Assembly (NCBI GenBank): GCA_010015675.1 | Contig: ML976979.1 | Coordinates: forward strand, 1,023,653-1,087,652 | DNA length: 64,000 bases | Reading direction: 5' to 3' | DNA from: Byssothecium circinans | Lineage: Eukaryota; Ascomycota; Dothideomycetes; Pleosporales; Massarinaceae | In this document: in pieces, positions 1-9,436 of the stretch | How the letters are laid out: each line of letters starts with the position of its first letter | Numbering within the stretch: position 1 is the stretch's first letter | Translations under genes and position numbers: made by a program | The notes under the pieces: generated by a model | What the model was told of the DNA's origin: nothing | Databases searched by the model: none | Seen by the model: the letters and a program-made list of their open reading frames with translations, nothing else

Positions 1-1596
1 CCTAGCCTCTTAAGCTCTATGAATTTCGTAATGTTAGGCATCTTCACACCGTTATTATAGCCTTGATGGGGAACCTCTAGCTTAATACCTTCTATTACAT
101 CTTCTTCCATTTGCACACCTTCCATTGGTTCGCCTTGGGAAGTATTCTCTGTAGGAAGTTCTACAATGATATGGTCAAGTAGATCTGCAGCATATCCTGC
201 ATTCTCACCCTATACCTTAGGGAAATGTGCGCTATAGTCTTTAATAGTGCGTAGATTATACGCACTAGGAAGCTTGCATGCTTTACCATCGCGAAAGAGT
301 TAGATAGTAGAGTCTGCATAATCCCCATCACGCTGTGCTTGGTAGATTAGAGAGAGTAGCACGCGTTATTATTAGGGGAATAGCATAGGGAATAGTAGAA
401 CAGGCATCTTTGACTTAGTGTTAACGCTGATCAGGTATCTATAAGGCACTTCTAACTTCTGTAGTGCTAACCTTATAGTGATAATCTATTATAGTTAGCT
501 TATACCTAATACCCTAACTAATACTACACTTACTTAACCCTATCACATAGGTAGCTTTAATTTAGTCTTCTTAAACACCTTTTAAGTAGCACCAGCCTAT
601 TAATGGTTAGTTCTAGACTAATACCAGGTCTAATACCCCACTTACCTATCCTAAACGCACTAGCTTCTTTCTAGCCACTAGAAGAGCGACTTAGTTATTA
701 AGTGTTAGGTTAAGCCACTAGATATAGCGCTGCTTAGTATTAGCTATAGTATTAGGTTAGTTGCGTTACACTTATAATAAACATGCCTTATGGCATGCGT
801 AGAATGAATCCCTTTAGCCCTTAATAATAGAGAATCCTTAACTTTTCTACTATAATGTTAAGCTCTCTATTCCAGTATCTCTTCACCTGTAGCTAGTAGC
901 TAAGCTCTGTCCATTCTTCCCTCTCTTTATTACTCAGGTTAGGCACTATTATATCAAATTTTTCTTTTTTCTCCTTGATGTCCGTCGTCTTTTTATCCGC
1001 TTTGCCTGCGTTAGATTTGCCCTTTTTGCTTGACTTGCTACTCTCTATACTCTCATTGATAGTAGACGAGGCAGCGTTAATAATATACTAAGGTGGCATG
1101 AACTCATCTTCTAGTGCCCAGACCTTTTCTTAAGGCTTAAAGACCAATCTCATAGTTTTGTAGTTAGATTCTAGCTTTCTAGTGCGTGCTATAGCTAGCT
1201 ATATCCAGAGCAGATTCTGACTCTCCCTATGTATTATTAGTTATACCTAATACCAGACTAATACTCTTCTCATACCTGGCCTTAAGCGCTGCATTGCGAC
1301 TCTGAATTCGAAGCATGTCCTCAAGTTGCTTACGCTTATTTTCATCTGTAGCGCTATCAAGCAGGTGCTAAATACGTGGCAAGAACTTCTTTGTCTAGAA
1401 AGTAGAGCACGCCTTTACTAAGTTAGTATATAATTATTCAGGTATGGGGGGGTTGTTATACCTTATTATCAGCGTTTTTTCCCTTTTGAATCATGAAGTC
1501 TTCGCCCTGCTTGCTTGCGCGAAGTTTGTTATTTTTAATGGTGCTTGCATTTGATGAGTATGCATCAGCAGCCTTCACCTTCTTCCGGTCTGCCAT
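1..1596 (-). pseudogene. RIP-damaged multi-exon gene of unknown function, runs off left edge
   Basis: I do not recognise the product. The frame starts at an ATG at 1596-1594 and can be followed through five introns that all preserve phase: 1461-1395, 1275-1227, 769-730, 645-597 and 533-486. Exons are 1596-1462, 1394-1276, 1226-770, 729-646, 596-534 and 485-1. The start encodes a Lys-rich segment (MADRKKVKAADAY). A Ser/Lys-rich stretch lies near 1050-960, followed by a hydrophilic helical segment. The last exon reads as normal acidic protein up to the window edge, so the gene is 3'-truncated by the window. Each later exon has several in-frame TAG, TAA or TGA codons, nearly all explained by C-to-T change of Gln codons; I saw no frameshift. 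It is divergent from the H3-like gene at 2413 and shares its intron motif. The exon model rests on phase and coding appearance only. Confidence 0.6.
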
Positions 1597-2412
1597 TGCA
1601 GCGAGAGGGCTTAGCAGGATGTATTAGGTAGGTATTAGGCGTTATTTAGTAGTGGGGCAAAGTTGCGTGTAGTGCGTAGACGTTGTATAAGGAGTGTATA
1701 GGAAGTAGTGTTAAGTAGTAAATTTTCAGTAATAAGTTTATTTATAGTTACACGAAATTGAAAGTAGGGCTAGGCAGCAATCATGGGAAATTATTACTAG
1801 CCTGTTATGTGCGTTAAATGCGCCCAACACTTTACGACATGATTCTGGCATGAGCGTGTGCAGCTTAGTCAGCTGCATAAGTACATACTAGAATCATAGT
1901 ATTAGGTTAGGTATTAGTCTCTCTTTAGAAGCCGTTTCCCATCTTTATACGTGGTTTTCTCACTGACGTAATGTTTTCTCTCTTATTTCACTTCTCTTTG
2001 CGCCCTTACCTTTACTACTTACCTTTACTGCTCACCCTTACTAGCTACCTTCACGTTACCTTCTTACTTCTCGCGCTTACCTACCACCCCGCACTTTAAC
2101 AACTCTCGATCTTTGCGATTTTGCTGTCTTTGTGGTCGCAAAGCTTTGCAGCTGCAGTATAGCTATAACTAAAGTATTAGGCTTAGTATTAGCCTTTCTA
2201 TGTGTATACTCCCCTATAATTTCCCCTTCTATTGCCTACTAATTTCGACTTCCTTGCGTACTATTACTATTCCTATTTCTCACTTTTACTATTCTTATTT
2301 CTCACTTTCACTTTCACTATTAACGTCATTGGTTTTCCGTCTATTTTCTAACCAAAAAGTAGTCAGTTTACGTCTATCTTATTTTCTTTCATACACCTTA
2401 CAACATACCATC
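1597..2412. promoter_or_regulatory. divergent intergenic region with CT-rich promoter tract
   Basis: This 816-bp gap separates two divergent broken genes. On the plus strand 1975-2095 is strongly pyrimidine-rich with repeated CTTACC/CTTTAC motifs, as is common upstream of highly expressed fungal genes. A second CT-rich tract (2205-2400) leads into the ATG at 2413 of the H3-like gene. Paired GTATTAG motifs occur at 1621-1638, 1899-1917 and 2174-2192, outside the coding exons; they could be remnants of 5'-UTR introns. The promoter role is inferred from position and composition. Confidence 0.4.
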
Positions 2413-3159
2413 ATGGCCGCTAAGAAGAATTGAGGCAAGCTGCCTACAAAGGCTCCTCGTGGCAGAGCTGGCAAGGGTAATAGCGCCTAAGGTAGACTAG
2501 GTATTAGTCTTAGTATTAGCTACATGTTAACTGTGTCTAGCTTTAGGTCCTTGTAAGAAAGGCTAGAAGAAGCTTCCTACCAATACTGGCACGAACCTAT
2601 ATAAGGGTCGCAAGAAGAAGGGAGGGTCACTGCCGCTAATACGGAAGCTAATAAGCTACGCTATGTAGAAGGAGCGTGCTCCCATCTACAAAGGCCCTAG
2701 CAAGGGAGGCCCTCACATTAGGCGTTGTAAGCCTAGCAGTAAGTTTTTAACCTATATTACTATAGCTAGACTAATACTAGTATTAGCCTTTGCTCTAGCA
2801 GAGATCTATTTCTACTAGAAGACTCTAGGTGACTTAATTCTAGTAGCGCCATTTAGGAGATTAGTTCGCGAGGTGCTACAGAATAATCAAGAGGGAAATA
2901 GTGACCCTATGTCCTATTTCCAGTCTGGGGCTTTAGACGCCTTACAGGCTACTGCTAAGGCCTTCCTAGTAGACATCTTACAAGGTATTAGTCTAATTTG
3001 TATAGTATTAGCCTTTACTAATAATAGTGCCTAGCTATAAACCTTAGTGCTATCCATGGGAAGCGCGTCACTATTTAAGCTAAGGACGTTAAGCATGTCA
3101 TTAGTGTTGGCAAGATTCTTGCTCCATACAGCAAGATTCTGCAGGACTTGCCCGCCTAA
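2413..3159 (+). pseudogene. histone H3-like (possibly CENP-A-like) gene, RIP-damaged
   Basis: Four exons (2413-2491, 2547-2738, 2799-2984, 3035-3159) total 582 nt, exactly 194 codons including the stop. The C-terminal half follows the histone H3 fold: PFRRLVREV (H3: PFQRLVREI), FQSGALDALQATAKAFLV (H3: FQSSAIGALQEASEAYLV) and NLSAIHGKRVTI (H3: NLCAIHAKRVTI), then an AKDV segment like H3 PKDI. Differences from canonical H3 (135 aa): about 193 aa in all, a Lys/Gly-rich tail of about 90 residues, loop 1 longer by about five residues, and a C-terminal extension of some ten residues. Six in-frame stops (2431, 2488, 2564, 2666, 2816, 3076) are single-base changes, five of them TAG/TAA fitting CAG/CAA. 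There is no frameshift and splice signals are intact. The H3 assignment is firm; whether it is a CENP-A type or a novel variant is open. The second acceptor could be 2801 instead of 2798. Confidence 0.75.
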
Positions 3160-3297
3160 TGCTGTATCTCACTATGCTACCTATCTCCTACATGTCAAGC
3201 TTAAGGGTATTAGGCGGTATGAGGCATGACTACTAGCGTTAAATGGATATTATCTGCAAAGTATAGCTTTCTATACTACTTAATTTGAGGAGTTATA

Positions 3298-3896
3298 ATG
3301 GACTGGAACACAGAAGGTTTCTAGCATACTAGCTAGGATAGGTAGCTTAACTATCTAAATAAAAAAGCTTTATTGCGTAACTACTCTTCTTCTCTACCCT
3401 AAGTGATAAATCGCTCCGCAAATTCTAATTCCCATTTACGAAAATTAGAAGGATCTTACACTAATCTTCTATGGATAAGCTAATCATTATAAAACTAAGA
3501 GTAAGCCTAGAGCTAGTCATAGCTATAAGTAAGAAAGTTACGTAGTAGTTTAAAAAGGAGTCCTTAATTAATATACACTTTAACTAACGTCCCGCTGAAA
3601 ATCTAGGCCGTACGCCCTATGAACATGACCTAGAATTACCTAAATACTATGGACCTTTACCTCCTAGCGACTCAACGAAGCCTAGTTGTGGGGATGTTAA
3701 TGAAGCTAAAGATAGAGACTTCAGAAATCTCATGCGGCCTAGAGAAGACGAAGATGAGCATGAAGTAGCCCTTCTATCCTATCAAGAGTACGTCACGAGC
3801 AGACTTGTTAATAATCAAGTGGCTTGTAAGCGCTTAATTGATAGCTTAATAACTATTAATCCTATTAAGTCAAGCTCGCCTATACTAATTTTTTAG
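3298..3896 (+). pseudogene. broken gene of unknown function next to hAT left end
   Basis: An ATG at 3298 opens a frame with many TAG/TAA codons up to about 3480. From 3471 another frame continues with few stops and is fully open from 3588 to 3893, about 102 codons of ordinary mixed composition containing RTPYEHDLELPKYYGP and an acidic PREDEDEHE stretch. A short intron between the two parts would be needed to join them, but I could not fix its ends. The frame runs into TAG at 3894-3896, where hAT-like sequence begins, so the 3' end may have been cut off by the transposon. I do not recognise the family. Premature stops fit RIP, as in the two genes to the left. Confidence 0.35.
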
Positions 3897-4142: not shown

Positions 4143-6692
4143 ATGCCTCCTATAAAACGCGCCTCTAATAACCTTACTTACCTAAAGAAACGCGTTAAAT
4201 CCTCTACTACCCGCGGTACTATTAGCTAGCCTATAGCTATTAATAGTTAGCTATTGCTATTACTATTACGTCTGTTACCTTATAGAGGTCTCATAGAAGC
4301 GTCCTAGGCTTTAACTTTTAAGTTATAACTACGCAAATTATAGCCTAAAGACGTTATCATTACGCCTACTAAGGGTAGTAAGAGGGTAATAGCAGCCTTA
4401 TTAGTAGTAACCCTAAATAATAAGACCTTATAAGAGGCGCTAGACGTAAGCCTTATAGATAACTTTAAGGGAATTAATTAAGGGCGTTTACGCAAGTATA
4501 TGAAGCTACTCTTATTATAAAAGTTACGTAAGAGCTAGATCTATTACTATAGCTACTATGTTACGCTACTAAAGGACCTAAGTAAGCTATACTTTATATG
4601 CTGTTACTACTATAAGTATAAGTATATAGATACTAGCGTTAGGATATATAAGATAACGCTCTTAACGTTATTAGCATAGTGACACTTAGAGCTGCTTAAG
4701 CGTAGCTATAGCTATAGTAAGTTAGCCATTACTATAAAACCTACCTAGCTATAACGCCTACTTAAAGATAGTAATAATAGCGTGTTATAGAAGGTAGCTA
4801 ATAAGCTTACTAGCTTTAATACCTAGCACTTCTAGCTAGTAGCTATTAGCTAGCTTATTAAGAATAATTACCCTCTCTCTAAGTTTAAAATACTAGCTTT
4901 TTAATGCTTCCTTAAAGCTTCTAACCTACTAGTAGAACAAGCGCTTTAGACGTCTTATATAAGTGTTTCCTAGTATATTACGCGCTTATATAAGTACCTA
5001 AAGCCGCGTGTTATCTTATAACTATTATAGGTACTTAGTAAAGTATACCTTAGCTTTAATAGATAGATGATAAAGGGTAGTAATCATAGCTTTCTAGGCA
5101 TTATTACGCACTTTATTAATAGTAGAGGCGACCTATAGGACTTACCTATAGCGCTACCCTAGCTAATAGGCGCTTATAGTAGTAAAAGGATAGCTAAGGT
5201 TATTATAAAAATGCTATAGGACTTTAAGATTATATTATAGTTAATTAGTTACTTTATGCTTAATAACGCTACTAATAATAATAGTACTATTCTAATATTA
5301 GCTTAAGAGTATAGTTTTAATGTTACCTACTAGCACCTCTACTATAGACCTTACATACTTAACCTTATTAGCTAGACACTCCTCTAGGGCAAGGGCAGCG
5401 CCGTCTTATTTAATAATAACGTATAAGAGCTTACTAACGAGCATAACTTTATAGTAGAGTAGAGGCGCGTAGGCCTACTTAGTATACTACTTAGTATTAT
5501 AAACTATATTAAAATGCTATAATAGTATAAGCTCTTTAAGGACTTCTAGCACCTCACCTACACTAAGCTACTATCTAGCGCGTTAGCTAATAATCGCAAG
5601 ATCCTTAAGCCTATTAAATCTATTATTACGTGGTAGAACTTATACTACTTATACTTTAAGCGTGCTATAAAGCTATAGTTTATAGTTAACGCCTACGCTA
5701 CTTACTATATATAGCGGGTGCAAAGGGAGGACACGTTTGCGTAAAGTCGCGGTAATAAGCTACTAGTTACGTAGCTATAGATGTGATTAGACGGCCTTAT
5801 AGGTGCTAATTAGGTAGTAATTATAGAGTATATAGATATATTAAAACCACTTAAGACTACTATAAAGCGCCTTAAAGGGCGTGGTAAAAGTAGTAGCTTT
5901 AGGGCTATTACTAAGATAATTCTAATATTTAAATACCTCCTTACCTACTATGAGTAGCGCGTTAACGCGTATGAGGTGGTTAACTACAATAAGCACGATA
6001 AGTCACCTAAGGATTACATTACAATTAACTTGCGCGTAGCTTAGTAGAAGGCTAATAACTACTACTCTAAGCTAGACGACTTGCCCGCGTACTACGCTGC
6101 TATAATACTCTATCTAATGTATAAGTACTACTATGATAAGGCGTGGGCTAAGAAGCCCGACTAGCTTAAGGCCAGTAACGCTAGCTTTCAGGCGCTCTGG
6201 GCGCAGTACAACACCTCACCGCGCGCGGTAAGGCCGTCGGCAGTAATCCCAAGCGATATAGACGACGCGATCAATAGTATACTCAACCCTAGTACTGCCA
6301 GCAGCCTTACCGCTAACGAGGACGAGTTTAAGAGGTGGAAGCGCAGCGAGCCAGCAGCTGAGAGAGGTACAGAACACGCAGATAACCCTATCAAATACTG
6401 GGTGAGCATGCGCGATTGCTACCCTAGCCTCAGTAAACTTGCGCTTGACGTACTCTCTATCCCAGCGTCAAGCTGTGAGTGTGAGCGCCTGTTCAGTGAG
6501 CTGGGCGACCTCTTAGAGCCGCGACGACGACGTCTAGGACCTCAACTTCTAGCGGCAATACAGTGCGTACGACGGTGGCAAAGAGATGGCCTCAGAGGCG
6601 ACGACGAGGTAGTAGAGGAGGAGGCAGCAGACGACGACAATATGGAGCTTTTGTGCGGGCTGGCGACTTGGGACGACGAAACTCAACACTAA
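4143..6692 (+). pseudogene. hAT transposase with C-terminal dimerisation domain, many RIP stops
   Basis: One frame runs from an ATG at 4143 to a TAA at 6690-6692, 849 sense codons with no net frameshift. Dozens of internal stops are almost all TAG or TAA where Gln is expected, plus a few TGA/TAG at probable Trp codons. The last internal stop is TAG at 6162-6164; the final 175 codons are clean. The clean part contains the hATC dimerisation motif (SIPASSCECERLFSELGDL, about residues 778-796) followed by the Arg-rich RRRRLGPQLLAAIQCVRRW, typical of fungal hAT transposases. The element is dead in this copy. The abrupt change at about 6.16 kb suggests that only the upstream part was recognised as a duplication by RIP. 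Confidence 0.85.
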
Positions 6693-7003: not shown

Positions 7004-9436
7004 ATGAAACCACATACTTTTGTGGTCGAATTCTCACTTAATTGGCTTCCTGTTGAGTTCATTCGAGAACAAGGGTACTCTGACCCACCAGAGGACGTAC
7101 TCGGAAAGATCATCACTCTTACTGGTACAGTATCTGATGCGCAGGCATTGACTGTTGAGGAATACATTCAGCATATGTGGCCATTGACCGGAATTGGAGT
7201 TCTTGAATCTGTGAAGGATGCTATACGGCAGCACATTGGTGCGAAACGTATGCTTGAAGAATGTAAGTTTGTTGCTTCCCAGCAAGCTTATCCCCATGCT
7301 AAAAGTATACATAGACAAGCTATATCACGGTGCCGTTGTCCGGTCAACTCTATCAGACACTGCCGTCTACATCAGTGCTCGTGGCACATTAGATGCCATC
7401 GCCGAGATCGGTGAACAACTTGCCTGGATGGTGGCCGCTATACGTTCATCGAGAGATGATACCAGACTCACGTACTGCTCACCGCTCGTTCGCAAACTCG
7501 AGACTGGAGTAACCTTGAGTAACGATCAAACAACGGCAACTTGCTACATTGACTTCGTTTTGGAAAAGCATCAAGAACAAAAAGCTTCAAGCGGTCAATG
7601 CTGGCACGCCTTGTTTCGCAACGCGGTAATTGCACAAGGCTTCCCTGTTCCGGTAAAGGCAGAGAAAAACACTGGCATGGAAATACCGCTCAATATTCTA
7701 GCAGCATTGGTACGAGCACATCGCATTCAAGAGTTTGGTGGCAACTTCTTCATCAAAGTCTTTAGTGCTCTGTTAGTCCTCACTAAGTACGCCGCAGATG
7801 TTGCAGTCTGGCATCTACTGTACAACCAGAATGGGGAGCACCTATCTTACACCAGCCCCAAGGTAGTAGCAGCTATTAGCGCAGTTCCACAACCCGTCCA
7901 GCTCCACTCGCTACAATCAGCCCGCCACGTTGTTGGTTGGTGTTCCAAAGTGTCTTGCTTTGCGGGTATGATCATAGTCGTCGTTGAGTGGAATACACTG
8001 ACAAGTCCAAAGGTTCACCTAGCGCAAGCGACCAAATCGATCGGCCTGACCTTCCAAACACCCATCAAGGGTGTGTGCTTGAGAAAATCACCATCTCTGG
8101 AGGCCAATTCATTACAGCAGGCGCTTCATTCGTTATCGGCAAGAAGGATAACCCAGTATTTCTCAGACCACGGGATGACTACTTTGAGCAATTGAGCTGG
8201 ATATCGAAGAAGTTTGTCATATTTCATGACATCGGAGATCGAAGAGCTTGGATGGTTGATGGTGCCAGCGCCCTGCTTCACCTTGTGCGGGCGTCTCTTA
8301 AGCATAATCAGGATGATGACTTCAGTCATCTTTTCCTTTTTGAGCCAAAAGATCTAGTAGAAGCCCCACCAGACTTATTAGGAAGGAAGGCAGCCATTGG
8401 TGTTCTGGCTAACGAAAAGAATTTGGATATCAAGCTGCGGCAGAGAGCGGTTGAAACTTCGGAGGAGGAAACGACCAGAGCAGATGGAGTGATAGAAAGA
8501 ACCACAAAGAGAAAGGTGACTTACTACTCCTTCAAAGATCGAGTCGACCAAATCTGCCACTTCATGGAGCAAATGATGGCCCATCAATCGCAGGTGCTCT
8601 CTCAAGATGGCGTTGGGTTCAAGATCAGGGGTAGCGCACGAAGGCAACTTGAGGGTTTCGACTTCAAGGATATAGCCGAAAGCAGAGACCCATTGCGGCC
8701 TCGAGTTGCGACGCTCGAATCTACCGGAGTAGGCTGGGTTGACTTCACCCGTGCTATGCATGCTATTACGCTCTTTGGTCGGGGTTTCGGTGAGCTATTC
8801 AAGCCGTCGAGTGGTGTCCAGATCTGCAACCACTGGAAAGCCGTTCCCAAAGCTATGGATTATCTTACAGTGAGAGTTTCAGACCTCCAGGAGATTTTGG
8901 AGACGAGAGGTAGTACTGGTGCACTTCCGAGCCTCGACGATAGTCCGAAAAGTTCAACCAGCAACTCTCATTGGAGACTCGTGGACGACATCCATTGGCT
9001 CAACCCTGGTACGATCTTTGGACCCTGTAGGACTTCGCGTAAACCTAAGGGCCAAAAGTGCTGCGAAAGAGCTCAAATCCTGCTTCCGACCAGCGTGCCT
9101 CGCATCCGGGCAAAATACAACAGCCCTACGGCCCAAGACCTACGGGTCGCTCACAGCGGTGCCATAATCTTCGGGCACAACCGGAAGCTATCTCTATGGT
9201 GGCCGGACATCGGTGATCCAGAAGACGGAAACTCTGAGGACTGCGACATAGTGGCGTCAAGTAACAGCATCTCACTGACGCCCACTGATAGCGGTATCGG
9301 TTCCAGTATCGGCTCCACACAGTTGAGTAGCCAGCATTCCCCAGGCTCTGAGACAACGGATAACACACACCGGGGAAAGAAGCGTGGGAATATCTTTGGG
9401 ATCAGTCGTACCAAGAAGCAAAAGCGCAATGGATGA
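7004..9436 (+). CDS. large-family fungal protein of unknown function (about 777 aa)
   Basis: Three exons: 7004-7262, 7315-7965 and 8013-9436. The introns (52 nt, GTAAGT...TAG; 47 nt, GTATGA...CTGAC...AAG) are fixed by exact phase. The product matches, from memory, a big family of uncharacterised proteins in Dothideomycetes. Family-type segments are TLTGTVSDAQALTVEEY (about residues 32-48), IAEIGEQLAWMVAAIRS, ARHVVGWCSK, a segment around VLEKITISGG, and the best conserved block ATLESTGVGWVDFTRAMHA followed by ITLFGRGFGEL near the C-terminal third. The tail is Ser/Thr-rich and ends in a Lys/Arg-rich stretch that could be a nuclear signal. No enzymatic motif is visible. I chose ATG 7004 because family similarity starts right after it; an in-frame ATG at 6848 is possible but would take in sequence next to the transposon. 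The hAT 3' end lies only about 165 bp upstream. Confidence 0.7.

Follow-up and report, generated by a model that had tools for sequence, protein, structure and literature searches.

The window, meaning the whole 64,000-nucleotide stretch of Byssothecium circinans DNA that was analysed (C3:1023653-1087652), carries what is probably a RIP-killed histone H3-variant gene that belonged to a Helitron2-type rolling-circle transposon and was kept there under protein-level selection. Copies of the gene and of its carrier were sought in the genome assembly (48.4 Mb, 109 contigs), and within the window the element and its parts are arranged as follows.

1-3457, plus strand: right-hand part of the Helitron2-type element, with its 3' end GGATCTT at 3451-3457 and the target consensus A^TA
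1-1596, minus strand: gene B, a second, multi-exon cargo gene (ATG at 1596-1594), which continues past the left edge of the window
1597-2412, no strand assigned: intergenic sequence between gene B and the H3 gene, retained in copies
2413-3159, plus strand: H3-variant gene, exons 2413-2476, 2547-2738, 2787-2984 and 3035-3159
3411-3422, no strand assigned: TCGCTCCGCAAA, the 3' member of the pair of asymmetric terminal inverted repeats, which stops some 35 bp short of the 3' end of the element
3423-3450, no strand assigned: subterminal hairpin, TTCTAATT...AATTAGAA, with a predicted 8-bp perfect stem

The first-pass annotation had read positions 2413-3159 as a four-exon gene for an H3 variant, and this was borne out, as was the spliced protein itself, although its length is 192 and not 193 amino acids. 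The 192 codons of the window copy contain five internal stops. In the C62 copy, the NCBI protein P0001 has the same exon 2-4 structure as our gene model, which uses the intron 2 acceptor of that protein. The intron 2 donor GTAAGT is found in 27/27 copies and the intron 3 donor GTATTA in 26/27, the remaining copy being truncated; the intron 1 donor is not constant across copies, and the borders of intron 1 are the part of this predicted structure of which we are least sure.

When the proposed profile check was made, Pfam Histone (PF00125) matched exons 2-3 of the C62 copy with 47.3 bits (E 3e-12) and also the window copy, with 31 bits (cut-off 26.4). In a PDB sequence search the C62 protein was best matched by histone H3 (E 7.5e-18), and the protein-database search gave 30 hits from 249 candidates, among which the best outside Byssothecium covered 47% of the query at 49% identity; the queries for both searches, made with a later CAG acceptor of intron 2, missed five residues before EIRFYQK. 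The element-borne protein has, by Pfam and PDB sequence search, a histone fold with the H3 signature, and the best Foldseek matches of a weak predicted model (pLDDT 65) were nucleosome entries.

The departures from canonical H3 noted at first sight (a tail of about 90 residues, a loop 1 enlarged by about five and a C-terminal extension) were also seen in our comparison with host H3, the tail being about 85 residues long, loop 1 longer by five residues and the C-terminus longer. The variant retains the AIH.KRVTI loop and the D of KD, and has A and P at the residues that we take to be R49 and R63 of H3. ARTKQTARKS and AARKSAP are the canonical H3 tail motifs; this modifiable tail is present in host H3 and absent from the translations of the variant. 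The two proteins share 61 of 117 aligned residues and the introns of host H3 lie at other positions, so that the variant is distinct from host H3, as the annotation had suspected, and on both grounds host H3 was rejected as a recent source of it.

That the gene formed part of a repeated, RIP-mutated sequence proved correct. It occurs at no fewer than 27 places in the genome, with 90-100% identity and one copy truncated, and the sole matches of P0001 outside the elements are host H3 and CENP-A. Of the 218 variable columns in an alignment of 26 copies, 210 are pure transitions, with A the most frequent base after the C/T columns (56/105). Internal stops were counted in 25 copies (the truncated L035 and L031, which has a small deletion, were left out): there are 171, and a C>T or G>A change from a sense codon of another copy explains all except one, located in the C62 copy. 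No codon is a stop in every one of the 25, as would be expected if the reading frame was open until RIP struck; judged from these alignments, the gene in the window is RIP-killed.

A mobile carrier had also been suggested, and it turned out to be of Helitron2 type. Comparison of the copies on C41, C62, C14 and C3 revealed a colinear element, about 9.5 kb long on C41 and C62 and about 11.7 kb end to end on C3, where it was read in part. A Helitron Rep/helicase (RepHel) coding region is present: Helitron_like_N gave 20 matches, 19 of them above the cut-off and all 20 with stops inside, and a PIF1 helicase match was obtained with Pfam (E 5.7e-11). For the window copy the 5' end and the RepHel region lie to the left of the window, with Helitron_like_N at C3:1017727-1018379. 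The partner of TCGCTCCGCAAA is TTTGCGGAGCGA, which sits at the 5' end of the element, outside the window. The hairpin predicted for TTCTAATT and AATTAGAA does not exceed shuffled sequence in stability: its z-score is only -0.87, and 40 of 200 shuffles fold equally well.

The 5' terminus was recovered at 28 of 30 left loci (25 of the family and three of short relatives, the other two having no pattern match), with A preceding TTTTGCGG or its RIP variants at all 28, and the 3' terminus at 26 of 27 right loci, with A after GGATCTT in all. When the flanks of 20 insertions were joined, eight matched paralogous sequence across the junction (those of C31, for instance, matched window positions 5523-5722 over 200/200 bases at 89.5%); these are empty sites, indicating that the element makes no target duplication. 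Its target is a short A/T site, ATA (A^TA). Insertion into a TT dinucleotide, given for Helentrons proper in the accessible text of PMC5148889, was not seen, ATA being found instead, and we therefore class the element as Helitron2-like and not as a Helentron proper. Features of hAT transposons were likewise not found: the 8-bp target-site duplication of that group is absent from the empty sites, and Pfam returned no hAT family in six pieces of the element. Since both RepHel and these termini are present, we infer that the element would transpose by rolling circle.

Short relatives with the 5' end of the element, probably non-autonomous derivatives, occur on C33, C3:1148353, C10, C37, C5, C16 and others. 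The C62 element, 9,521 bp long, contains 41 occurrences of the heptamer GTATTAG/CTAATAC (Markov mean 1.85, maximum 6 of 200), often paired about 12 nt apart and located inside introns and between genes; there are 22 in window positions 1-3459 versus one in 6800-64000. An element protein might bind the heptamer, or it might be a unit that made the introns of the element.

The H3 gene is a constant cargo of this element. There are 26 full 3' ends (294-298 matching bases), and each adjoins a different one of the 26 H3 places that are not truncated. Of the 25 long 5' ends (at least 90% identity), 21 are followed downstream by H3 in matching orientation, including one at which H3 lies some 20 kb off and the matches are interrupted, and one with a truncated H3. 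At the other four (C30, C14, C23:107100 and C99) the match to window positions 1-2400 ends at 1555, 2245, 908 and 516, respectively, with neither H3 nor a 3' end downstream. Four further, short 3' matches are on C107 and C7, which represent an older family, and on C33 and C17. A locus at C17:346167 was considered as an H3-bearing sister and rejected, as only its first 0.94 kb or so matches and C17:352500-356000 has no match.

Gene B is oriented divergently to the H3 variant, and the intergenic sequence between them is a probable divergent promoter. It had no Pfam match at E <= 1, in a search whose sensitivity was lowered by a query that had been spliced approximately and carried X in place of stops, and a query of the same kind found no homologue at E <= 1e-3 among 7234 protein-database candidates. 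To the right of the Helitron, adjoining it and not part of it, window positions 4143-6692 or so hold a RIP-degraded element, presumably hAT-like, whose C-terminal part is open and which contains the empty-site paralogue of the C31 insertion (5523-5722). An open frame of 482 codons (7988-9436) lies directly to the right of the repeat block.

The older family in the same genome allowed the period before RIP to be addressed. On C7 and C107 a similar 3' terminus, 83-86% identical, lies beside a recognisable, diverged H3, whose exons 3 and 4 adjoin it; the older family is known here from that part. The H3-carrying frames were above 1000/1000 shuffles in five of 12 frame tests; the other seven, in other frames or upstream, were not above shuffles, nor was anything in the upstream part of C107, where tail exons were sought. 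Intron positions agree between the families at the acceptor of intron 2 (C107) and, to within one codon, at intron 3 (both loci).

Because RIP makes transitions and not transversions, transversion counts reflect the time before RIP. By codon position, H3 transversions number 18:10:32 between C62 and C107 (third-position p 0.0011, one-sided binomial, 89 codons) and 18:10:34 between C62 and C7 (p 0.0004, same test), two comparisons that are not independent, C7 and C107 being 92% alike. From the amino-acid alignment used, one loop (10 versus 8 codons) was left out, as were the final codons of exon 4, and one splice site in it was shifted by three bases; in exon 4 taken alone the third-position excess did not reach significance (p 0.09). 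L042 (C47:33041-33442), which is related to gene B but diverged from it, has exon 1 open over 43 codons with the same splice donor, and its comparison with gene B exon 1 gave 5:4:14 in those 43 codons. The third-position bias suggests that selection probably acted on the H3 protein before RIP, and we infer that this took place on the element. Selection might alternatively have acted in a host gene captured twice; two captures are made less likely by the position, the intron sites and the 3' terminus that the families have in common.

The place of the variant in the H3 family is unsure, since it forms a long branch. The long tail and enlarged loop 1 had been read as a hint of CENP-A, and the element-borne H3 does share an enlarged loop 1 with host CENP-A, the centromeric H3 (translated from C13 and 97% identical to the NCBI B. 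circinans protein P0031), as well as 66 of 138 aligned residues. However, the element H3 falls outside a single group made up of the 20 CENP-A rows, both in a 39-row tree (97/95) and in a 32-row tree from which seven long rows had been dropped (95/83). In the former the variant joins H3like_lgn4 (89/77), a pairing flagged as long branches meeting, and in the latter it stands alone on a long branch. The AU test rejected neither a joint clade with CENP-A (p 0.11) nor one with fungal H3 (p 0.12). The CENP-A hint is thus not supported, and we regard this identity as improbable.

What the element did with its histone can be approached through the reading set out at the start. The element would have acquired the H3 gene prior to the split of the two families and retained it under protein-level selection, the histone doing something for its carrier, as both the selection and the constancy of the cargo suggest. 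Its last burst may have been recent, given the few transversions between copies, with RIP then inactivating it. A Helitron could instead have taken up an H3 gene and amplified it without any use to itself, in the way suggested for the housekeeping H3 of hAT elements (transduplication). Pleurotus Helitrons bear captured genes, downstream of RepHel (PMC4289320), and the published H3 captures were interpreted as transduplication (PMC6710886), according to the sections of these papers at hand. Against such a passenger speak the related H3 at the same place in the older family and the third-position bias in two cargo genes, which points to protein upkeep, if perhaps in a host gene prior to two captures; we therefore consider it rather unlikely. 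Histones are also encoded by some large DNA viruses. That the gene came from an endogenised virus and not from a transposon is nevertheless scarcely credible in view of the Helitron termini, the RepHel region and the clean insertion sites, and a viral-contig scan found four stretches matching the pattern, none of them a relative.

Taking the histone as a protein used by the transposon, we tentatively propose a mechanism, the likeliest we see, though the odds are somewhat against it: variant nucleosomes on the DNA of the element, or on a circular intermediate, might escape H3K9 methylation and so lessen heterochromatin silencing. With the H3 fold kept and the canonical K4/K9/K27 tail missing, such nucleosomes could not be H3K9-marked, and it is this missing tail, together with the repeated appearance of H3 on elements unrelated to each other, that led us to the proposal. 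A broader version, which we hold to be doubtful, would make H3 variants a convergent weapon of fungal transposons from unrelated superfamilies (hAT, Helitron2), kept under selection because an H3 not methylatable at K9/K27 shields the chromatin of the element, or a circular intermediate, against heterochromatin and RIP-linked silencing. So far H3 on transposons has mainly been interpreted as capture of a housekeeping gene; another type of carrier, an association spanning two families and a sign of selection independent of RIP make a testable case for histones used by transposons. If true, the contest between element and host would extend to the nucleosome, in fungi whose main defences are RIP and H3K9 methylation.

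To call an element-borne histone a new type of cargo was too strong, since hAT-borne H3 has been published for Pyrenophora (PMC3538342) and Mycosphaerellaceae (PMC6710886); the comparisons below draw on the available portions of the cited papers. The hAT element of Pyrenophora tritici-repentis resembles ours in being a DNA transposon with a divergent H3-like gene (H3L, reportedly represented by ESTs) and a second ORF, of unknown function, and is present in tens of copies (PMC3538342). It has TIRs and nearly identical copies, whereas the Byssothecium element is of Helitron2 type and RIP-killed, and its H3 is set apart from H3L, as described, by introns, a long novel tail, a loop 1 enlarged by five residues and the two-family signs of selection. 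In Pseudocercospora fijiensis and five further genomes an H3-like sequence was similarly multiplied by a DNA transposon, a hAT, and destroyed by RIP; in P. fijiensis, though, it is intronless and was interpreted as a copy of the host H3 transcript (PMC6710886), and the Byssothecium gene has introns and is not close to host H3. Repeat R25 of Parastagonospora (Stagonospora) nodorum is also RIP-degraded with similarity to histone H3; its element type is unsettled, however, and its authors re-classified it as presumably an endogenous gene region (PMC3017866). Among Helitrons, the FoHeli elements of Fusarium oxysporum are likewise Helitron2-like, with asymmetric terminal inverted repeats of which the 3' one lies about 20-40 bp from the end, as in our element (about 35 bp), and FoHeli1/2 insert between TNAT and A; they differ in their termini, ours being TTTTGCGG...GGATCTT, and a histone gene goes unmentioned in the accessible parts of the paper (PMC5148889). 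We found no Helitron-borne H3 in the portions seen of open-licence PMC text. As far as these searches reach, what is new in Byssothecium is a Helitron2 carrier, a strongly divergent and intron-bearing H3 variant, and evidence of selection at the protein level.
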